Source of the DNA: Clostridia bacterium
Lineage (GTDB): Bacteria; Bacillota; Clostridia; UBA1212; UBA1255
Direction: 5' to 3'
Assembly: GCA_017560765.1 (NCBI GenBank)
Contig: JAFZEI010000031.1
Coordinates: 1-64,000, forward strand
DNA length: 64,000 nucleotides
Shown here: piece by piece, positions 7,730 to 62,029 of the stretch
Position numbering within the stretch: the stretch's first letter is position 1
How the letters are laid out: each line of letters opens with the position of its first letter
The notes under the pieces: generated by a model
What the model was told of the DNA's origin: nothing
The model's input: the letters and a program-made list of their open reading frames with translations, nothing else
The model's database searches: none
Position numbers and translations under genes: made by a program

Positions 7730-8777
7730 AAATATAAAATATGCAGTACTTATTCCGGCATATAAGCCTGATGAAAAATTTGTGGACTTTGTTACTCTGC
7801 TGCGTAAGCAAAATATACCTGTTGTAGTCGTAGACGATGGTAGCAAAGATGCGTGCAAAGCATTTTTTGATTCGGCTGAAAAGGTAGGATGCGTAGTAGT
7901 TCATCATGAAGTAAACGGTGGCAAAGGAAAAGCTTTGAGAACCGGTTTTGAGGAGATTATTCGTCTTAATTCAAAGGGCGCAGGATACAACTATGTTGTA
8001 ACTGCTGATTGTGACGGTCAACATGATATTGAGGCTATTAATACTGTTGTAGAGGCGGCAGAAGAGTCTTTAATGAACGAAAAAGGCCCTGCTTTTGTGA
8101 TAGGCGGACGGTTCCGTGATGAGGGCGAAAAGGTTCCGTTTAAATCAAGACTCGGTAACGAGTTTACAAGAATGGTCTTTAAGGTTGCAACAGGCTTGTC
8201 AATACATGATACTCAAACGGGCTTGAGGGCAATACCTGAGAAGCTTTTCAATGAAATGCTTAAAGTTAAGGGCGACAGATATGAATATGAAATGAATATG
8301 CTGTTACAAATTAAAAATTGGCATGTTCATTATAAGGAAGTACCTATAAAAACAATTTATTATGACAATAATGCAGGAACACATTTTCATCCTTTGCGGG
8401 ATTCTTTTTTGATAATTTCTCAAATACTAAAGTTTGCATTATCATCGATGGCTTCGTTCTTGTTTGATTATGTACTTTTTGCAATTCTTACTATTGTTTT
8501 CGGTTGGAAATATGCGGTGGCTTATGCTGTGGCAAGAGTCTTAAGCGGTATTTTAAATTATATTTTGAATGCTAAGGTTGTTTTTGGCAAATCTTCTCCT
8601 AAAAGCTTTATTAAATATGCTTGTGTATGGGCTTTGATTTTGGTTTTAGGTTCTTTCGGCGGACAAGTTATAAATGGTTATTTGCATCTGCCAAAGATAT
8701 TATGTAAGTTAGTTGTGGATTTGCCGCTTTTTTGCTTGAGCTATTGGCTGCAAAAGATATTTGTGTTTAAAAGGTGA
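7722..8777 (+). CDS. GT2 glycosyltransferase fused to a GtrA-like membrane domain
   Basis: The first 220 residues form a family-2 glycosyltransferase of the polyprenyl-phosphate sugar transferase type (LIPAYKPDE, VVDDGSKD, and the metal-binding TADCDGQHD near residue 91-99, then GGRFRDE). Residues about 225-351 are hydrophobic and match GtrA-type four-helix proteins (SMASFLFDYVLFAIL, ILNYILNAKVVFG, LQKIFVFKR). The two parts often occur as neighbours; together they would make and flip or use an undecaprenyl-phosphate-linked sugar for cell-envelope glycosylation. This substrate is inferred. The TTG start at 7722 follows GAGGAGGT and overlaps truB by 8 nt, so it is embedded in the translation operon. 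Confidence 0.88.
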   Translation: MSKNIKYAVLIPAYKPDEKFVDFVTLLRKQNIPVVVVDDGSKDACKAFFDSAEKVGCVVVHHEVNGGKGKALRTGFEEIIRLNSKGAGYNYVVTADCDGQHDIEAINTVVEAAEESLMNEKGPAFVIGGRFRDEGEKVPFKSRLGNEFTRMVFKVATGLSIHDTQTGLRAIPEKLFNEMLKVKGDRYEYEMNMLLQIKNWHVHYKEVPIKTIYYDNNAGTHFHPLRDSFLIISQILKFALSSMASFLFDYVLFAILTIVFGWKYAVAYAVARVLSGILNYILNAKVVFGKSSPKSFIKYACVWALILVLGSFGGQVINGYLHLPKILCKLVVDLPLFCLSYWLQKIFVFKR

Positions 8778-8784
8778 TTGTTAT

Positions 8785-9462
8785 ATGAATACTTGTGTTT
8801 ATGTTTTTACAGGTCATTACGGCAGCGGAAAAACTGAAACGGCCGTAAATTTCGCATTGAAATTAAAGGAAACAGAGAAAAATGTAGCACTTATTGATTT
8901 GGATATTGTTAATCCGTTTTTTCGTTCTGCAGATGCAGCAGAGCTTTTAGAAAAAGCCGGAATACGCGTGGAAATTCCGTTGTTTGCAAATACAAACGTT
9001 GATATTCCAGCGCTCACCGGAAATATGGCTGCACTTATTCGAGATGAAGAGTGGAATGTTGTGCTGGATGTGGGCGGTGATGATTTGGGAGCAAAGGCAG
9101 TCGGCAGGTATAGTGACGATATTAAGTCGAGAAATCATGTAAGATATTTCGTAATGAATCCAAACCGTCCTTTTACGAAGGATATGATGTCTGCAACGAA
9201 AATTTATGATGAAATAGAAGCTGCTTCTTGTGTAAGTTGCGGCGCTGTTGTGGGAAACACAAATTTACTTGATGAAACTACCGTGGAGACGATTATGGAT
9301 GGTTTGCCTTTATTGGAAGAATTTTCCAAATCCAAAAATATTCCCATAGCATACCATGCAGTAACATCAAACATAGCAGATGAGCTTACAGAAAAACACG
9401 GCGAGATTTTTAATAGCGATAATATTATAAGAATTAACAGGACTGTCAAAAGACTTTTCTAA
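8785..9462 (+). CDS. Conserved P-loop ATPase of unknown function (ParA/CobQ-like fold)
   Basis: The 225-residue protein begins with a deviant Walker A (FTGHYGSGKTETAVNFA, residues about 7-23) and continues ALIDLDIVNPFFRS, as in SIMIBI-class P-loop ATPases. A later DVGGDDLGAKAVGRY segment may be the Walker B/switch region. No DNA-binding or membrane domain is visible. The ATG at 8785 is preceded by AAAAGGTGATTG, and the gene starts 7 nt after the glycosyltransferase stop. Its position between the glycosyltransferase and hflX does not reveal a role. Confidence 0.85.
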   Translation: MNTCVYVFTGHYGSGKTETAVNFALKLKETEKNVALIDLDIVNPFFRSADAAELLEKAGIRVEIPLFANTNVDIPALTGNMAALIRDEEWNVVLDVGGDDLGAKAVGRYSDDIKSRNHVRYFVMNPNRPFTKDMMSATKIYDEIEAASCVSCGAVVGNTNLLDETTVETIMDGLPLLEEFSKSKNIPIAYHAVTSNIADELTEKHGEIFNSDNIIRINRTVKRLF

Positions 9463-9488
9463 GTATATAATTGACAAATAGGAGTTTT

Positions 9489-11309
9489 ATGGCTGACAAC
9501 AAAATTATTTACGGGAATATATCTTCTGTAAAAACATCAATTCTGGAACGTATGAAAGAGTATATAGATAATATATATGATCCGGGTTCTTTTATACCTA
9601 CGGAGATTTCAGAAATGATGAAAGAGGTTACAATAGATACGAATAAAGAAGTGGCTGTTTTTCTTGATAGAAAAAACAGGGTTCTTGCAGTGGCATTAGG
9701 TGATGATAGAAGCGTTCCTTTGCCGGAATTGGAGGGAAAACGCAGTAATCTGAGATTATGCGGAATAAGATGTATCCACACGCATCCTAACGGAGGCGTT
9801 CGTCCTTCGGATGTAGATATTCAGTCTTTAAAATCAATGAGATATGATGCGATGGTAGTTATAGGAGTAGATGTTATACAAAAAATTGCCACAGGTGTGT
9901 CTGCTGCAGTTTTGACAAGAAACGAAACGGGTTTGTTATTAAACTATGAGCTTCGCGGCCCATATTCCTATTGGAAAAAACATAATTTTGATTCTGTTTT
10001 TGAAGAAATTGCAGAAAAAGACAGAGAAGCATCAGATTTTTCAAGTAATTCTCAACGTATAAAGGACGATACACAAAGAGCAATTCTTGTGGGAGTTGTT
10101 TCTGAAAGTATGAATTTAGCAGGAAATCCTTTGGCGGAGCTTCAAGAATTAGCAGAGTCGGCAGGAGCTGTAGTTGTTGGTTCTTATACGCAAAGGCGAG
10201 ATATGCCGGAGGCAAAAACATATATTGGCAGAGGTTTGGCAGAGGATTTGGCGCTTCGAAGACAGGGACTTAACGCTGATATTATTATATTTGATGATGA
10301 ATTGTCTGCTTCTCAGATAAGAAATTTGGAAAATATAATCGGTGCAAGAGTTATTGACAGAACTGCTCTTATTTTGGATATTTTTGCCGTCAGAGCCAAA
10401 TCAAGAGAAGGTCGTTTGCAGGTAGAATTGGCACAGCAAAAATACAGGCTTCCTCGCCTTATGGGACAAGGCACCTCTTTGTCTCGTCTTGGCGGCGGAA
10501 TAGGTACGCGCGGCCCGGGAGAAACGCAACTTGAAACAGACAGACGTCATATTAAACGTAAGATTAACTTCTTAGAGTCACAGCTTAGGGAAGTAAAAGA
10601 GCGACGTAGCGTTTTGAGAAAAGAAAGACAAAAAAAGGAAATACCGACTGTTGCTGTAGTAGGATATACAAATGCAGGAAAGTCCACTTTAGTTAATGCT
10701 TTGTGCAATTCCGAAGTACTGGCCGAAGACAAGCTTTTTGCTACACTTGATACATCTGTAAGACGACTTGTAACACCTGAAAACAGAGATTTTTTGCTTA
10801 TAGATACAGTTGGCTTCATAAAAAAATTGCCGCACGACTTAGTTGAAGCTTTTAAATCTACTCTTGAAGAAACAGTATATGCAGACTTGCTTTTGCATGT
10901 GGTTGATTGCAGTAACCCTGATTACGAGGCGTGTATTGATACGGTTGAGAGCATATTAAAAGAAATAGGAGCAGAAAATCGCCCTCGCTATCTTGTCCTT
11001 AACAAAATTGACAGAGCACCCGAAGGCATATATCCGTCGCCGAGAATTGTTCAAGGTTACGGAAAGGTTTTCAGAATTTCTGCTGTAAATGGTGACGGAC
11101 TTGAGGATTTAAGAACACAAACTGTAAATTACTTTGTTAAAGCAGATAAGAAGTTTGAAATTACAATACCTTACAGCAGTGGAGGTTTGTTATCTTATTT
11201 ACACAAATATGGCAAAGTAGAAATGGAAGAATATACAGAAAACGGTATTTATGTTAAGGGAAAAATTCCGCCTGAACATTTTAGTAAAATAAACAGGGAG
11301 TATTTATGA
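9489..11309 (+). CDS. hflX: HflX ribosome-splitting GTPase with N-terminal JAMM-like domain
   Basis: HflX is a ribosome-associated GTPase that splits stalled or hibernating ribosomes. The C-terminal 420 residues are canonical: AGGAVVVGSYTQ-type N-domain start near residue 220, the GGGIGTRGPGETQLE motif, G1 GYTNAGKST near residue 392, DTVGF, and NKID. The first 190 residues are an extra module. It contains H97-T-H99, seven residues, S107-D-V-D110, with a candidate glutamate at E54: the JAMM/MPN+ metal-site spacing, also RadC-like (HPxG...PSxxD). ATG 9489 is chosen for TAGGAG just upstream. The stop overlaps the start of yigZ (ATGA). Confidence 0.93.
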   Translation: MADNKIIYGNISSVKTSILERMKEYIDNIYDPGSFIPTEISEMMKEVTIDTNKEVAVFLDRKNRVLAVALGDDRSVPLPELEGKRSNLRLCGIRCIHTHPNGGVRPSDVDIQSLKSMRYDAMVVIGVDVIQKIATGVSAAVLTRNETGLLLNYELRGPYSYWKKHNFDSVFEEIAEKDREASDFSSNSQRIKDDTQRAILVGVVSESMNLAGNPLAELQELAESAGAVVVGSYTQRRDMPEAKTYIGRGLAEDLALRRQGLNADIIIFDDELSASQIRNLENIIGARVIDRTALILDIFAVRAKSREGRLQVELAQQKYRLPRLMGQGTSLSRLGGGIGTRGPGETQLETDRRHIKRKINFLESQLREVKERRSVLRKERQKKEIPTVAVVGYTNAGKSTLVNALCNSEVLAEDKLFATLDTSVRRLVTPENRDFLLIDTVGFIKKLPHDLVEAFKSTLEETVYADLLLHVVDCSNPDYEACIDTVESILKEIGAENRPRYLVLNKIDRAPEGIYPSPRIVQGYGKVFRISAVNGDGLEDLRTQTVNYFVKADKKFEITIPYSSGGLLSYLHKYGKVEMEEYTENGIYVKGKIPPEHFSKINREYL

Positions 11310-11965
11310 AGGACATATATGCAACCTTAAAATCAACAGGTGAAGCAGAGTTTGAAGAAAAAAAATCAAGATTTATTGGCTGTGCAGCACCTGTTTCCAC
11401 TGAGGAAGAAGCGTTGGCTTTTATAAAAGAAGTAAAAAATAAATATAAAAAGGCACGTCATTACGTTTATGCTTATAGCTTATGTTCAGAAGACGGCGTT
11501 GTAATAAGCAGATACAGTGATGATGGAGAACCTCAAGGAACAGCAGGCGTTCCTACTTTGAATGCTATTCAAAGCGGACATGTTGAGAATGCTGTAGTGG
11601 TTGTTGTGCGGTATTTCGGCGGAATACTTTTAGGTGCTTCCGGGTTAACACGTGCATATCGTAAGGCAGCATCAATGGGTATTAATGCTTGTGAAACAGT
11701 AAAAAAGATTCTTTATGATGAGGTTTTTGTAAGTGTTGATTACCAAATGTATAATTCTGTACGTTATTTGCTTACGAGCGGCACAAATGATGAAATTGTT
11801 AATGCAAGTTATAAGATAATCGATGAGGAATTTGCTGAGGACGTACTTATTCATATGTATATTGCTGTTGGTGATACTGCTAATATTTGCCGTATTTTGA
11901 CAGAATGCACACAAGGTAAGGCTGAGATTATAATCGAAGAGAAAAAAGGGCGGTATACGGTGTGA
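11306..11965 (+). CDS. yigZ: YigZ/IMPACT family protein
   Basis: The 219-residue product has the UPF0029/IMPACT N-terminal domain (EAEFEEKKSRFIGCAAPVST, HYVYAYSL, then the conserved DDGEPQGTAG near residue 70-80 and VVRYFGGILLGASGLTRAYRKAA) and the smaller DUF1949-type C-terminal domain. Bacterial YigZ proteins are soluble and of uncertain biochemical role; a eukaryotic relative binds Gcn1 and links to translation control. It overlaps hflX by 4 nt (ATGA) and cca by 4 nt (GTGA), so the three are translationally coupled. Confidence 0.93.
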   Translation: MKDIYATLKSTGEAEFEEKKSRFIGCAAPVSTEEEALAFIKEVKNKYKKARHYVYAYSLCSEDGVVISRYSDDGEPQGTAGVPTLNAIQSGHVENAVVVVVRYFGGILLGASGLTRAYRKAASMGINACETVKKILYDEVFVSVDYQMYNSVRYLLTSGTNDEIVNASYKIIDEEFAEDVLIHMYIAVGDTANICRILTECTQGKAEIIIEEKKGRYTV

Positions 11966-13293
11966 TTTATGATAAAAATGCCAATGAAATTATTTATACT
12001 TTAAATAAGAACGGATACGAAGCATATTATGTGGGCGGTTGCGTAAGAGATGCTCTTTTGGGAATAAAACCTTGTGATTTCGATATTACAACAAGTGCAA
12101 AGCCCGAAGAAACGAGTGCGATATTCCGTAGGGCAGGTTACACTGTAATTGAAACAGGCATTAAACACGGCACTGTTTCTGTGATTTTTGATAAAAAAAG
12201 TTATGAAGTGACAACTTTTCGTGTGGATGGGAAATATAGTGACAGTCGCCATCCTGAGAGTGTGGAGTTTGTAAGCTCTCTGAAAGAGGATTTGGCCAGG
12301 CGCGATTTTACCGTAAATGCCATGGCATATCATCCAAATACAGGAATTTTTGACTTTTTTGGTGGCAGAGAGGATTTAAAAAATAAATTTATAAGATGTG
12401 TTGGGGAGCCTGTTAAGCGTTTTGAAGAGGATGCTTTGAGAATTTTGAGGGCTTTGAGATTTGCAAGTAGGTACGATTTTACAATAGAGGAAAATACTTC
12501 TAATGCAATTAAGCAGTGCAAGGCGCTTTTGGACAATATTTCGGCAGAGAGAATTTACAGTGAATTTTGCGGGATTTTAATTAATAGCAGTTGCGCCAAA
12601 TTTTTTAGAAATTATGTAGATGTTTTTGCTGTTATTATCCCTGAAATTTTACCTATGGTGGGTTTTGAACAAAAATCTCGTTGGCATATATATGATGTTT
12701 TTGAACATACGATGGTGGCGCTGGAAAATACTCCCGATGACTTGATTGTGAAACTTACTGTGCTTTTTCATGATATGGGAAAGCCGATTGTGTTCACAGA
12801 AGATGAGCAAGGTTTCCGTCATTTTAAGGGACACCAGAAAGTGAGCTGCGAAATAGCAGAGAAAATATTGCGCAGACTTAAGGCTGACAATAAAACGAGA
12901 GAGCGAGTTTACACGCTTGTTCTTCATCATGATGACAGGATTCCTCTTGATGAGACAGCTGCTTTAAGACTTATAAGAAGAGTGGGAGAAGATGCACTGC
13001 GTGCTATATACGTGGAAAAGGCTGATAACTTAGGGCAGAATCCTGTAATGGTTTCAAAGCGTTACAGTGAATTAAACGAGCTTCAAAAAATGGTTGAGAA
13101 GTTAATCAAAAACGATGAAGCTTGTATTTACTTGTCAGATTTGGCAATCTCAGGTAAAGATGTAATTGCTTGCGGTATTAAACCGGGGCCTCGTGTGGGA
13201 GAAATTTTGAATATTTTATTAGAAGAAGTTACAGAAAAAAGGCTTCCCAATGAACGGGAAGCCCTTGTGGATTTTATTTTTCGTCTTTTTTAA
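11962..13293 (+). CDS. cca: tRNA nucleotidyltransferase with HD domain (CCA-adding family)
   Basis: This class II nucleotidyltransferase adds or repairs the 3' CCA of tRNAs. The 443 residues show the catalytic block YYVGGCVRDALLG with DFDI (about 20-42), the RRDFTVNAMAYHP motif, the nucleotide-binding region EEDALRILRALRFASR, and an HD phosphohydrolase domain (HIYDVFEHT, LFHDMGKP, about 240-275). GTG 11962 overlaps the yigZ stop. It ends the long co-directional block. Its last 20 nt overlap mscL on the other strand, and its 3' coding part contains the mscL terminator. tRNA-Leu and tRNA-Arg in this window both encode CCA, so the enzyme probably serves mainly in repair here. Confidence 0.95.
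   Translation: MIYDKNANEIIYTLNKNGYEAYYVGGCVRDALLGIKPCDFDITTSAKPEETSAIFRRAGYTVIETGIKHGTVSVIFDKKSYEVTTFRVDGKYSDSRHPESVEFVSSLKEDLARRDFTVNAMAYHPNTGIFDFFGGREDLKNKFIRCVGEPVKRFEEDALRILRALRFASRYDFTIEENTSNAIKQCKALLDNISAERIYSEFCGILINSSCAKFFRNYVDVFAVIIPEILPMVGFEQKSRWHIYDVFEHTMVALENTPDDLIVKLTVLFHDMGKPIVFTEDEQGFRHFKGHQKVSCEIAEKILRRLKADNKTRERVYTLVLHHDDRIPLDETAALRLIRRVGEDALRAIYVEKADNLGQNPVMVSKRYSELNELQKMVEKLIKNDEACIYLSDLAISGKDVIACGIKPGPRVGEILNILLEEVTEKRLPNEREALVDFIFRLF
13235..13263 (-). terminator. Intrinsic terminator of mscL, inside the cca coding region
   Basis: On the minus strand the stem GGCTTCCC-N7-GGGAAGCC (13263-13241) is followed at once by TTTTTT (13240-13235), 10 nt after the mscL stop. On the plus strand the same DNA encodes residues KRLPNEREA of cca and is not followed by a T-run, so it should work only for mscL. 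Confidence 0.85.
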
Positions 13294-55193: not shown

Positions 55194-55311
55194 TTTTTAC
55201 CGGCAAAAAATACTTGCATTGAAAAGATAAATCAGTTAAAATTAAGGCAGTATACTTGTAAAAGGAAATATAATATGTTATGAGTATAAAAATTTTATTG
55301 GAGGTATGGAA

Positions 55312-57012
55312 ATGAAAAAAGTAATTTCATTGGTAATCGCTATTGCGGTTATGGTATCACTTTTTGTTATCCCTGTAAGTGCTGCAGAGCAAGTTATTGA
55401 TTTGTCAACTTTAGACACATACAATTTCCCTGCTGCAGGAATCAATGATGTAGTAGGATTCCACTTTGCTACAGGCGGTACATCAGGAGACAATTCTCTT
55501 GGCACACTTGATCTTAGCGGATATAACATGATGGTTGTTACTTACAGAAACGGTGTTGCACCCGGTATAGGTGTTGCAGATATCGCTCTTGTTAACAGCG
55601 CAAACGAGCAAGTAGGTTTGTTAGAAACTGAAGGTTCAGGCGGTTGGGGATCAGAAGCTATCGGTTACATCGATATAAGCGCAATCACATCAACAAGTGA
55701 TACTTATTCATTCAAATTATTGCCCGGTGCTAATGGTTCTTGGATTACAGGTGTTAAACTTTCAACAGAATCAGGTATTTCTTCTGCTTTAACAAATGCA
55801 AATGCTATAGTAGCAGGCGAAACAAAATTAACACAAGACATTACAGGAACATTGGTTGCTTCTTCAGGCACATATGTTATCGACCTTGCAGGCTTTACAT
55901 GGTCAAATTCAACAGCAGTAGCACTTAACGTAAATGGTGCTGATGTTACAGTTATTGACTCTGTTGGCGGCGGTAAAATTATCGTTACAGCAAACGATGC
56001 AATCGAAGTAAACAGCGGTAAACTTACAACTAAAGGCATTGCAGTTATTTCTGATAACAGCGGCGGAGATGCATTCTTTGTAAACGGTGGTACAACAGTA
56101 ATTGAGGACTGTGATATTTATGCTAAAAAAGCAGGCATTGACGTTTCTCAAAACGGCGACAGCGCAACAATCACTGTAAAAGGCGGTACTTTTGCGGGCA
56201 CATATAGCGAAGAAGAAGTTCGTACTTCTGCTATCGAATTCAGAAATGACAATAAAGAAATTACATTGTTAGGAGATATTACATTTAAGAACAACCTTAT
56301 TCTTCGCAGAAATGAAGCAACAAAAGCTTTGACAGATCTTATTACAGCAGGAACAGACAGCACAATAACATATGGTGCTGATGCGACTGTAGAAGGCTAT
56401 GAAAATTATAAAGCTAATACAATTGAGTATGCTTACACAGGTACAGGCGAGCCTGTAGATCCTTCTGATCCCACAGATCCTTCTGAGCCTTCAGATCCTT
56501 CTGATCCCACAGATCCTTCTGAGCCCGGCACACCTGATAAAGATGTAGAAATCGATGTAAATGCTCTTCCTGATGCATCAGAGTATAAAGCAGCAGGATA
56601 CGAAGATAAAGTTCTTATTGTCAACAAAGAATTATCACTCGGCACTCATAATCTTAAAGGATGCAAGAAAATAGTATTATCATACGGTGCAGACAAATCA
56701 GCTCCTCTCGGAGATCATGATGTTTATATTAAAGATGCATCAGGCAACGTAATCGGTAAAGCTCGTCTTACTGCTGCAAGCACCAACTGGGCAGGCGGCT
56801 CACAAGATGTTGCTATAGAGATTAACTCTGATTACAATGGTGAAATCTTTGTTGCAAAAGATGAATTCGGTCACCAAATTGCTGTTAGCGCAGCTAAATT
56901 GGTTTATGCTGCAGGTTCTGACGTTGCTACAGGCGATGTTATGCCTTTTGTAATTCTTATTGCAGCAGCAGCTTTTGTTGTTACAATTCTTTCTAAGAAA
57001 AGAGCTTTTTAA
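55312..57012 (+). CDS. Secreted surface protein with beta-helix-like repeats and C-terminal membrane segment (566 residues)
   Basis: The signal peptide (about 1-24, ending VSAAE) is followed by a beta-rich domain (about 25-150), a region of short beta-strand repeats (about 160-370: ADVTVIDSVGGGKIIVTANDAIEVNSGKLTTKGIAVI...TVIEDCDIYAKKAGIDVSQNG...TITVKGGTFAG) that looks like a right-handed beta-helix, an Asp/Pro/Ser/Thr repeat linker, another beta-rich domain, and VATGD before a membrane segment with a KKRAF tail. The VATGD motif is reminiscent of variant sortase signals but does not match LPXTG. No catalytic residues are recognised. ATG 55312 stands 7 nt after GGAGG; ATG 55306 is too close to it. 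Confidence 0.85.
   Translation: MKKVISLVIAIAVMVSLFVIPVSAAEQVIDLSTLDTYNFPAAGINDVVGFHFATGGTSGDNSLGTLDLSGYNMMVVTYRNGVAPGIGVADIALVNSANEQVGLLETEGSGGWGSEAIGYIDISAITSTSDTYSFKLLPGANGSWITGVKLSTESGISSALTNANAIVAGETKLTQDITGTLVASSGTYVIDLAGFTWSNSTAVALNVNGADVTVIDSVGGGKIIVTANDAIEVNSGKLTTKGIAVISDNSGGDAFFVNGGTTVIEDCDIYAKKAGIDVSQNGDSATITVKGGTFAGTYSEEEVRTSAIEFRNDNKEITLLGDITFKNNLILRRNEATKALTDLITAGTDSTITYGADATVEGYENYKANTIEYAYTGTGEPVDPSDPTDPSEPSDPSDPTDPSEPGTPDKDVEIDVNALPDASEYKAAGYEDKVLIVNKELSLGTHNLKGCKKIVLSYGADKSAPLGDHDVYIKDASGNVIGKARLTAASTNWAGGSQDVAIEINSDYNGEIFVAKDEFGHQIAVSAAKLVYAAGSDVATGDVMPFVILIAAAAFVVTILSKKRAF
56458..56525 (+). repeat. Tandem 36-nt coding repeat (Asp-Pro-Ser/Thr linker)
   Basis: One full 36-nt unit (56458-56493) and 32 nt of an exact second copy (56494-56525) encode DPSDPTDPSEPS-type residues. 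Identity at DNA level, including the third codon positions, indicates recent duplication and slippage-prone length variation. Confidence 0.9.
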
Positions 57013-58460: not shown

Positions 58461-58491
58461 AAGGAGCTGTTTTATGCAGCTCCTTTTTTTT
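58461..58491 (+). terminator. Terminator of the 419-residue lipoprotein gene
   Basis: AAGGAGCTG (58461-58469), 7-nt loop, CAGCTCCTT (58477-58485), then T-run. It reaches the last bases of spoVT on the other strand. Confidence 0.9.
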
Positions 58492-59041
58492 ATTGTTCAA
58501 GCTGCTTGCCTATTATTGCCGCTGCAGATTGAGTAAGCTTTGCTTCTGTATCACCAATTGTCTTTCGTGTGTCAGGAGAAAACATAATCACTGAACCGAC
58601 AGGGTCTCCGTGAGAAATTATCGGTGTGCCTACGAATGACATCATTTTATCTCCGCTTATATCTTCTAAAATAGGGAAGAAATCTGTTCTTCTGTCAGGG
58701 GCAATGAATGTAGTCCTGTCTTCCATAGCTTGTTCTAATTGCCTTGTAATTCTTTTGCCGCTAAAATCTTTCTTGGATACACCTGAAACTGCCACTACGG
58801 AATCTCTGTCAGTAATACAAGTTGGATAACCTGCGGTTTTTGCAAGGCTGTCTGCAAATTGTAATGCAAATTCATTTAAATCACTCATTACAGAGTGTTT
58901 TCTTAACACTATTTCGCCATTTTCTCCGGTGTAGATTTCTACCGGATCTCCCTCACGCAGGCGCAAAGTTCGGCGTATTTCTTTTGGTATGACTATTCTG
59001 CCGAGTTCATCGATTCTTCTTACTATTCCTGTTGCTTTCAT
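58490..59041 (-). CDS. spoVT: Stage V sporulation protein T
   Basis: SpoVT is a transcription regulator that tunes sigma-G-dependent genes in the forespore. The 183 residues have the AbrB-like swapped-hairpin DNA-binding domain (MKATGIVRRIDELGRIVIPKEIRRTLRLREGD, about 1-50) and a GAF-like C-terminal domain (about 60-180). This length and layout distinguish it from the short AbrB. It marks the organism as an endospore former or a recent descendant of one. The start at 59041 follows minus-strand AAGGAG, which is itself buried in a hairpin (59053-59096). Confidence 0.96.
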   Translation of the reverse strand: MKATGIVRRIDELGRIVIPKEIRRTLRLREGDPVEIYTGENGEIVLRKHSVMSDLNEFALQFADSLAKTAGYPTCITDRDSVVAVSGVSKKDFSGKRITRQLEQAMEDRTTFIAPDRRTDFFPILEDISGDKMMSFVGTPIISHGDPVGSVIMFSPDTRKTIGDTEAKLTQSAAAIIGKQLEQ

Positions 59042-59052
59042 ATATAAAAAAC

Positions 59053-59096
59053 TCCTTGCTTTACAAATTGTGTTGTTATTATCTGTAAAACAAGGA
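59053..59096 (-). promoter_or_regulatory. spoVT leader hairpin covering the Shine-Dalgarno sequence
   Basis: On the minus strand TCCTTG-T-TTTACA (59096-59084) pairs with TGTAAA-G-CAAGGA (59065-59053), a 12-bp stem with one mismatch. The 3' arm contains most of AAGGAG, the spoVT ribosome binding site, and AGTTTTTT follows. It could sequester the site in long transcripts and/or act as a terminator of the upstream nucleotidase gene. Confidence 0.6.
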
Positions 59097-59125
59097 TTTT
59101 TATACTTCTACAATTTATTTTGTTA

Positions 59126-62029
59126 TCAGAATATGAGTTTTTTTCTTACTAAACAGAGTCCGCTAAATAAGAATATAATGGAAACGCAAACTAACTCAAA
59201 TTTGATATCTCCTGTATTTGGGTCGTTAACAGGTTTGTCTGTTTCGTCGGTTGTAGGCGGTGTTATATTCGGAATATCGCTGCCGGCAGCCTTGAGCAAC
59301 TCAATAGCATCATCAAGAGTAGCTTTAATATCAGACGGGATAAGGCCCTTTTCGTACTCTGTCAGCAAGTTATATGCATTTGCGCTATTTTGTACTTTCG
59401 ATAAAAGTTCATCATCGTTTGCCTCCGGTAAGGCTGAAATCAAATTAATAACATTTTCAGCATTCTCGACTACTTTAAGAGCAGCATTTATACGAGAAAG
59501 GTTGCTGTTGATTTCCGTAATTTCTTCATTGCTCAAAGACGAAGTGTCATTAAGAGCAGCTTCGTAATCAGCCTTAGCTTGAATAAGATCGTTTTTGCTT
59601 GATAATGATACATTTTCGGCAGTGATTCCACTGGCAATAATAATTGACTGTTTTTCTTTGCGGAGCTCTACACCGCCGCCGAGCTCTATATAGTAACTGC
59701 AACAATCATTATCTGTAGACACGTTTACAAAAGGCCCGTAGCTTGGATTTCTCTCGGGATAAACAGCAAAATAAAGTTCTTGGTTATCATAAACTATTAC
59801 ATCAACACCTACTTTGACGGAAACAGTGATGCAATCATCCACTGCATCCTTTAAATCTACAAGAGCTGCATCTTTGTAAATTACAAGTAAATCATCATTG
59901 TTAATATTACAGTAGTGTCCCATTGTTTTTGCTCCTTGCGCACGTGTTCCGCACTTACTGCAAGTATATTCCATCTCAATCTCTACTTTCTCGTAATGAT
60001 TAAGGTCAGGGAAAACGTCACCATAGTTATCGACTTTGCCAATTTTTTCGGCTGCATATAAAGTCGGCGAAGAAATAAAAATAAGTGCGAAAATAATAAG
60101 TGCAGATAAAAGTTTTGTTGAAACTTTATTTTTATTTATTTGTTTGATTACGCCGGCAGAAATAATTAATATAAGAATTAAGAAAATTGCACTGCTTTCA
60201 CCGGTGGGCGGATTATTGTCATTTTGAGAGGAATCTCCTTGCGCAGTAACTAATTTGATTCTGCCGCTTCCGTTTACATTACTGTAGTCAACCAGAAGAC
60301 CGGGGTATTTTTCAAGAAGGGGAGAATTGGATGCATCAACTGTGCAGTTTTCAAAACCTTTTATGTAATTTGCTAAAACCATGTAATCTTCAGATACATA
60401 ATCTAAAACATTTACAGCACCGTTCAACATGGCAAAACCGCCGCCGAGATCGCGTAAAGTGTAGTTGTAACCGGCTAAATTGTACTTGGCGCTTAAATTA
60501 AGTGGTTCCCAGCAGTTATTCTCTTTATTGTATACCTTCACATCGTGTACACGATATTTTATAGGTCCGCTTACCCAAACATCATATTCATCTTTAACAG
60601 TGGTGTTTTTTGTGGAGGTGTTAATTTTATATGTTAAGCCGGACACATGGAGGAAACTGCCATCTTCATTTGGCGTGTGACGAGTACTCCACTCTAACAT
60701 ATCCAATATCTGTTGACCCGTAACAGTTTGAAGACAAGCTACATTTCCGAAAGGATGCATATCCTTACAAGTTTTGTACGAAACATCGCCTGTAACAGCT
60801 TTGTTGCGAACGCCGCCGCCATTCATAATTGCAACATCCACATCAAGATCCATATTATCAAAGAGATAATAAAGTGCATCGGCTGCGAAATCACCTGAAT
60901 TAGTTTCTTGACTGCGCACGAGACGGTTGTTTTCGCTGTCATAATTATCAAAAGTAACAGCAAATGAACCTATTTTTTGACCGAGTTGATTGTCGATTTT
61001 TTGAAGCCATTCGTCTTTTATTTTTCTCGTATCAGCGTCGCTGATTATTGAGGAATTTTGGTAAAACTCAGAAGATAAAGTATATCCGTCTTCTTCATTG
61101 CCCTCTAATTCGATAAAATCTGTAGAAATATCTCCTGTTTCCGAATCAATAACCATCATTCCTATTCTGTTAAAGTATTCACCTGTTTGTGTAAGGAGAA
61201 CGTGGTTACCGGCTTTATCTTTTATTGATTTACCTTTTATAACAGTATGTGAATGACCGTCTATAAAAGCATCAAGACCGCTTAAACCGCTTATTGTTTC
61301 TTCGCTTGTCCATGGAGTAGACGAAGGATCTACACCTAAATGACCTAATGCAATAATTTTTGTAGCTCCGGCACTTTTGACTTCGTCTATTGCTTTTTGA
61401 ACATCTTGACGAAGTGCGCTGCCATCATCACCGGCAGAAATATTGTATATAAATTCTCCGTGTTCATTCTGGAAATAGGCCGGAGTAGATTTTGAGAAAG
61501 TCTCAGGAGTTGTAACACCGATAAACGCAAGCTTTTCGTTACCGCAGTTAAATGTTACATAACTATCTAATACATTATCACCTCGAACACCATTTAAAAC
61601 ATGGTAAAAGTTACAAGATATGTAAGGGAAGTTTGCTCTGTCAATTGTATCCATGCATCCTTGCATATTGTAATCAAACTCATGATTTCCCAATGTGGCT
61701 ACATCATAGCCTGCAGCATTCATTAATTTAATAATGCTTTCACCCTTATCCATAGAACCATACGCAGTTCCTTGAATATGGTCTCCAGCATCAGCCAAAA
61801 GTACGTACTTGTACTTTTTTTGCAAATCTTTTTTTATTGCTGCAATCACATCATAACTTAACTTTCCGTCGATGTATGTATGGACATCGTTTGTGTAAAG
61901 AATCACAATATCTTCTGATGGTGAGCTGTCAGCAAAAACTTCTGTTGCCGGTGTTAGGAAAACCAAAGTCATTATTATGCCTAAAATAAGACTGAATTTT
62001 CGTATGAGTGAGTGAGTTGACTTTTTCAT
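59126..62029 (-). CDS. Secreted 5'-nucleotidase/cyclic phosphodiesterase fused in frame to a second exported module
   Basis: The 967-residue product starts with a signal peptide (about 1-33). Residues 40-590 are a UshA/YfkN-type metallophosphoesterase (LYTNDVHTYIDG, LADAGDHIQGTAYG, TLGNHEFDYN, ALGHLGVD, GHSHTVIKG) with the 5'-nucleotidase C-terminal domain (SGDFAADALYY, IMNGGGVRN). PPTGES (607-612), a hydrophobic stretch (613-628) and KQINKNKVSTK follow, like a cell-wall sorting signal. Then LLSALIIFALIFISSPTLYA (640-659) reads like a second signal peptide, without its own start codon (ATA at the expected place). The last part has a CxxC zinc-ribbon-like segment (690-693), helical FIVAR-type repeats, and DPNTGD (936-941) before a final membrane segment and a KK tail. 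TAGGAGG precedes the ATG. Confidence 0.88.
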   Translation of the reverse strand: MKKSTHSLIRKFSLILGIIMTLVFLTPATEVFADSSPSEDIVILYTNDVHTYIDGKLSYDVIAAIKKDLQKKYKYVLLADAGDHIQGTAYGSMDKGESIIKLMNAAGYDVATLGNHEFDYNMQGCMDTIDRANFPYISCNFYHVLNGVRGDNVLDSYVTFNCGNEKLAFIGVTTPETFSKSTPAYFQNEHGEFIYNISAGDDGSALRQDVQKAIDEVKSAGATKIIALGHLGVDPSSTPWTSEETISGLSGLDAFIDGHSHTVIKGKSIKDKAGNHVLLTQTGEYFNRIGMMVIDSETGDISTDFIELEGNEEDGYTLSSEFYQNSSIISDADTRKIKDEWLQKIDNQLGQKIGSFAVTFDNYDSENNRLVRSQETNSGDFAADALYYLFDNMDLDVDVAIMNGGGVRNKAVTGDVSYKTCKDMHPFGNVACLQTVTGQQILDMLEWSTRHTPNEDGSFLHVSGLTYKINTSTKNTTVKDEYDVWVSGPIKYRVHDVKVYNKENNCWEPLNLSAKYNLAGYNYTLRDLGGGFAMLNGAVNVLDYVSEDYMVLANYIKGFENCTVDASNSPLLEKYPGLLVDYSNVNGSGRIKLVTAQGDSSQNDNNPPTGESSAIFLILILIISAGVIKQINKNKVSTKLLSALIIFALIFISSPTLYAAEKIGKVDNYGDVFPDLNHYEKVEIEMEYTCSKCGTRAQGAKTMGHYCNINNDDLLVIYKDAALVDLKDAVDDCITVSVKVGVDVIVYDNQELYFAVYPERNPSYGPFVNVSTDNDCCSYYIELGGGVELRKEKQSIIIASGITAENVSLSSKNDLIQAKADYEAALNDTSSLSNEEITEINSNLSRINAALKVVENAENVINLISALPEANDDELLSKVQNSANAYNLLTEYEKGLIPSDIKATLDDAIELLKAAGSDIPNITPPTTDETDKPVNDPNTGDIKFELVCVSIIFLFSGLCLVRKKLIF

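Follow-up and report, generated by a model that had tools for sequence, protein, structure and literature searches.

An ORF of 967 aa on the minus strand of the window (the whole 64,000-nucleotide stretch of gut bacterium DNA that was analysed) holds a 5'-nucleotidase and a second exported protein in one chain, raising the question of whether one surface protein or two are obtained from it. It is customary to regard sorting signals and signal peptides as marks of protein ends, an assumption also made by gene finders and signal predictors. That two export-competent proteins are joined here by real terminal signals is well supported. The ORF is considered, at a probability of about 0.6, to be a real in-frame fusion and a secretory precursor giving two wall-anchored proteins, for which we infer the cleavages and the wall attachment. 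The features of the locus are as follows (a slash marks the predicted cut).

59126..62029, minus: whole fused ORF, 967 aa
61931..62029, minus: N-terminal signal peptide, aa 1-33, ...TEVFA/DSS, with AGGAGG ahead of the start (from sequence)
61244..61903, minus: calcineurin-like metallophosphatase domain, aa 43-262, PF00149 (Pfam)
60422..60928, minus: 5'-nucleotidase C-terminal domain, aa 368-536, PF02872 (Pfam)
60113..60214, minus: internal sorting-signal-like segment, aa 606-639 (from sequence, profile and position tests)
60197-60214, minus: NPPTGE of this segment, aa 606-611
60146-60196, minus: membrane segment of this segment, aa 612-628
60113-60145, minus: lysine-rich loop KQINKNKVSTK, aa 629-639
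60053..60112, minus: internal signal-peptide-like segment, aa 640-659, LLSALIIFALIFISSPTLYA/A, without a start codon of its own
59630..60049, minus: orphan domain of the second protein, aa 661-800, with a CSKC...GHYC motif
59294..59629, minus: helical spacer, aa 801-912
59129..59224, minus: C-terminal sorting-signal-like segment, aa 936-967, DPNTGD, membrane segment and VRKKLIF
58490..59041, minus: spoVT-like (AbrB-type) gene directly downstream of the fused ORF, used as a syntenic marker

The two halves and their flanks

The first 605 residues comprise a signal peptide and a 5'-nucleotidase, both domains of which scored above their Pfam cut-offs (PF00149, 37.2 bits against 21.5; PF02872, 94.1 bits against 23.6). 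The NCBIfam model NF040549 scored 166.9 bits on the fused ORF, far below its cut-off of 1050 bits, and the window nucleotidase is a member of the broad 5'-nucleotidase family outside the streptococcal Nt5e group. The C-terminal end of the nucleotidase was found to be highly variable among relatives (L003, L032-L038), with stand-alone anchors, other extensions, SLH-like repeats or nothing.

The closest relative, G001, is a MAG of the same genus (RGIG8679, from water deer colon) whose nucleotidase shares 74% identity with that of the window. The G001 protein ends at an anchor of its own, NPPTEDSLTSAALVFICCSACILLFTVRKKRLSKKA-stop (NPPTED...RKKRLSKKA-stop), followed by a terminator hairpin and then spoVT; in the window, an extra segment comes between the nucleotidase and the same spoVT gene. 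DNA similarity between the two breaks off just before the anchor and picks up again in the spoVT leader, and the extra ~1 kb is therefore a segment of the window lineage, lying within syntenic flanks and joined in frame. The same second half was present in no relative, and this fusion is known from one MAG only. Of the two halves, the nucleotidase stands alone in G001; no free-standing homologue of the second domain was found in 391 genomes of the class.

Two further observations were made around the locus. A strong hairpin (z = -6.2) at 59041-59110 (minus) separates the fused gene from spoVT and pairs the ribosome-binding region of the latter, G001 having a different, terminator-like hairpin at this place. 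A surface protein family with a C-terminal xxTGD-membrane-SKKRAF arrangement (window 55306-57012, plus, and L064:5295-8998) has one copy in the window and three in a row at the syntenic place in the relative G002.

The codon usage score of the second half is 0.089 in the ORF frame, within the 0.065-0.252 spanned by the remaining genes of the window, with the other two frames scoring about -0.10. As codon usage is thus native in this frame only, the second half is taken to be coding, and it consists of 327 open codons with a complete terminal anchor. Its orphan domain (140 aa) has no homologue in the 391 class genomes, phages, plasmids, Pfam or PDB. Weak class-level matches were discarded, having fallen in glutamate 5-kinase and ribosomal protein genes. 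The CSKC...GHYC motif is a possible metal site, and single-sequence fold prediction of the second half was uninformative (pLDDT 42). The helical spacer is shared, at 33-34% identity, with surface proteins of the sorted kind in related genomes.

The junction

The features of a sortase substrate (PxTG-type motif, hydrophobic segment and positive tail) are present at both residues 606-639 and residues 936-967, the first set being internal, 328 residues from the end of the ORF, and the second terminal (DPNTGD-hydrophobic-VRKKLIF), as the initial annotation had described it. Four of the 11 loop residues are lysines (K629, K633, K635 and K639). Residues 640-660 read LLSALIIFALIFISSPTLYAA, the second hydrophobic segment spanning aa 640-656 and being followed by SSPTLYAAEK. 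Neither sorting signal of the fused ORF was listed by TIGR01167 or NF033846 at E<=1, and nor was the terminal signal of the protein at 55306-57012.

The reality of the two internal signals was assessed by position and by similarity. The junction pattern, defined as PxTG, a membrane segment, at least two K/R and another membrane segment, no closer than 100 aa to the end, arose in 3 of 20,000 shuffles of the fused protein; among 516 ORFs scanned, it was found only in the window ORF and in members of one other family, the Clostridia cassettes described below. The pattern is not a product of chance. When the 81-residue junction was searched against the 391 class genomes, the first half matched genuine C-terminal anchors and the second half genuine N-terminal signal peptides with an ATG start, and one match, in G350, ran across the joint. 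The succession of a sorting-signal-like and a signal-peptide-like segment proposed at the outset is thus present within the ORF and resembles genuine terminal signals, and the joint lies between unrelated domains, not within a conserved single domain.

The ORF is uninterrupted, and its internal signal peptide follows the membrane segment without an internal start, as had been claimed: codon 631 is ATA, with no Shine-Dalgarno-like sequence before it, and no ATG, GTG or TTG occurs in the ORF frame from codon 561 to codon 685.

Similar joints in other Clostridia

A search for other ORFs with an internal PxTG and a double hydrophobic segment, the homologues that the initial annotation had envisaged, identified 16 cassettes (xPxTG, membrane segment, K/R loop and a signal peptide ending in AxA), conserved in frame, in six genomes of one other Clostridia family, the single-contig genomes G400 and G426 among them. 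These lie inside ORFs unrelated to that of the window. Two tandem G350 paralogues of 1207 and 1174 aa (L113:4884-8507 and 8571-12095) consist of a signal peptide, ~100 aa, NPKTG-membrane-RKKRKASK, a second signal peptide (KANA/Q or KAQA/Q) and ~1000 aa, and at the internal position of the second paralogue TIGR01167 (LPXTG_anchor) scored above its cut-off. Two cassettes per ORF occur in G350:C27 and G436:C36. In L136:287-4027 (minus) and L137:318-3929 (plus), two internal anchor and signal peptide cassettes each amount to three exported parts per frame.

The cassettes are under in-frame purifying selection, with dN/dS of 0.07-0.26 across species and paralogue comparisons (0.069 for G350/G436; 0.09 and 0.13 in double-cassette ORFs; 0.24-0.26 for the G400 and G425 copies and for the G400 paralogues). 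None has lost P-x-T-G, and an A-x-A-like signal peptidase site persists at the end despite divergence elsewhere, a pattern that fits predicted cutting at both sites. No Shine-Dalgarno-like sequence was found before any internal start in any cassette tested.

A profile built from ten cassettes (A1) gave full-length matches only in G000, G350 and G400 among the candidates scored (at most 15 per genome) in the 391 class genomes, and only in G000 among those scored, on the same basis, in 398 genomes of the phylum. Given this cap, the rarity of the cassettes is an impression. Within the order to which the window belongs, where all candidates were scored, the whole cassette was found only in the window ORF. 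One candidate for a second fused case, L084, was rejected, as its match crosses a stop between two ordinary genes; it remains an example of a terminal anchor.

Joints lacking PxTG were also found. In G023, from the window's order, an 897-aa ORF (L209:2081-4774, minus; G023:C1) with a weak match to profile A1 encodes a signal peptide, ~190 aa, a membrane segment, an internal lipobox (LTAC) within FAKVSCLVLCLMLTLTVAVNLTAC and BspA-type leucine-rich repeats. In G267, a single-contig genome from another family, an 1116-aa ORF (L210:3885-7235; G267:C1) has two such joints: a NEAT domain (225-347) is followed by a membrane segment and a signal peptide ending GHA/A, then by Shp (628-737), and then by the second joint, a membrane segment with the lipobox (LSAC) of LLLLLATSLSAC, which leads into an IsdE/SiaA-like binding protein (848-1078). 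Immediately after this ORF come genes for a FecCD permease, an ABC ATPase and another large exported protein.

Heme proteins of the NEAT, Shp and IsdE/SiaA types are normally separate exported proteins, and in streptococci shr, shp and siaA are separate consecutive genes. The parts of the G267 ORF stand in the same order as in streptococcal shr-shp-siaA and staphylococcal Isd, likewise followed by permease and ATPase. However, where those systems have separate genes, G267 has a single ORF containing both a signal peptide and a lipobox in its interior, and it looks like a set of consecutive operon genes fused with their end signals kept.

The recurrence of the joint in unrelated bacteria suggests that in some bacteria several exported proteins are made from one precursor which is then cut. 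Put generally, some Clostridia may produce several surface proteins from one secretory polyprotein, in which each joint would be a stop-transfer segment (often a full sorting signal) with a type I or II signal peptide, and processing would fall to sortase, signal peptidase I and lipoprotein peptidase; we give this wider proposal an even chance.

Alternative readings, proposed processing and known systems

The contig comes from a MAG, and a sequence error could mean that the halves are two adjacent or overlapping genes in the cell, both carrying conventional end signals. Two overlapping ORFs would indeed result from one particular one-base error in the A-rich codons 631-636, and the nucleotidase is a separate gene in G001. 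However, of the 210 one-base indels in the loop a single one produced a clean split, and none of the single substitutions did; since the same test separated the conserved, selected cassettes from other species with equal or greater ease, such a split is not diagnostic of error. The would-be start also lacks an upstream Shine-Dalgarno-like sequence, both halves show native codon usage, the same architecture is present in single-contig genomes, and misassembly would take two wrong joins within the syntenic flanks. An error is regarded as unlikely.

Unlikely, too, is an uncut membrane hairpin, in which one protein would carry the nucleotidase next to the second domain on the outside of the cell. 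Two hydrophobic segments around a loop with so many lysines are what a hairpin with its loop inside would have, yet a hairpin requires no PxTG, A-x-A or lipobox, and these motifs are kept across independent joints. The lipobox-bearing substrate-binding part in G267 would moreover be expected to need cleavage for lipidation. The retention of PxTG and A-x-A favours predicted cutting over an uncut hairpin. As to the choice between hairpin and two-protein polyprotein left by the initial annotation, its premise of export-competent halves with real terminal signals is well supported (the G001 anchor, the independent joints and the lipoboxes), with cleavage still a prediction. A recent accidental fusion without benefit, whose downstream part would be made but degraded or misplaced and would decay, fits a fusion seen in one species only with a second domain lacking detectable relatives, but is very improbable given the open, natively coded and fully anchored second half and given that another family has kept such a joint over the long term.

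On the preferred reading, that of a secretory precursor, export would be begun by the N-terminal signal peptide and transfer stopped by the internal NPPTG-membrane-lysine segment, leaving the 11-residue loop in the cytoplasm. The next hydrophobic segment would insert as a signal peptide and restart export. Signal peptidase I would cut after LYA (aa 659), giving a mature N-terminus at A660, and sortase would cut within NPPTG, linking the nucleotidase to the wall; the second protein would be anchored via its own DPNTGD signal. One translation event would thereby yield two surface proteins in equal amounts. The window's genome has six sortases over the cut-off and one below it, of pilin-type and other kinds as judged by eye.

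If this is correct, sortase acts on internal signals in nature, surface protein sets of fixed ratio can arise from one reading frame, and the annotation of such ORFs changes with respect to topology, localisation and domain fusions. The conserved ORFs with internal signals would offer natural substrates for testing sortase on such signals. The single elements are known; their combination, in which a signal peptide comes in frame after a sorting signal, in more than one family and in some ORFs two times, was absent from the literature searched. That search, for internal LPXTG signals, bacterial polyproteins and FbcH, returned no relevant paper; it covered few of the subscription journals, so that novelty is unproven.

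The precursor of FbcH in Bradyrhizobium is cut by signal peptidase into cytochrome b and cytochrome c1. As in the window ORF, a membrane segment is followed by an internal cleavable signal sequence, and one precursor gives two mature proteins (predicted in the present case); FbcH differs in comprising respiratory proteins, without a sorting signal or wall anchoring. The joints share PxTG, a hydrophobic segment and a positive tail with LPXTG/NPXTG sortase substrates (TIGR01167, NF033846), but the tail leads on to a further signal peptide and ~300-1000 more residues. SrtB of Clostridium difficile cuts (S/P)PXTG and has a 5'-nucleotidase among its predicted substrates (PMC4155245). Surface 5'-nucleotidases, both this one and those of NF040549 (Nt5e_LPXTG), resemble the fused ORF in having a signal peptide and both domains with a PxTG anchor after them; in contrast to theirs, the anchor of the window nucleotidase is not C-terminal and is followed by a second exported protein.
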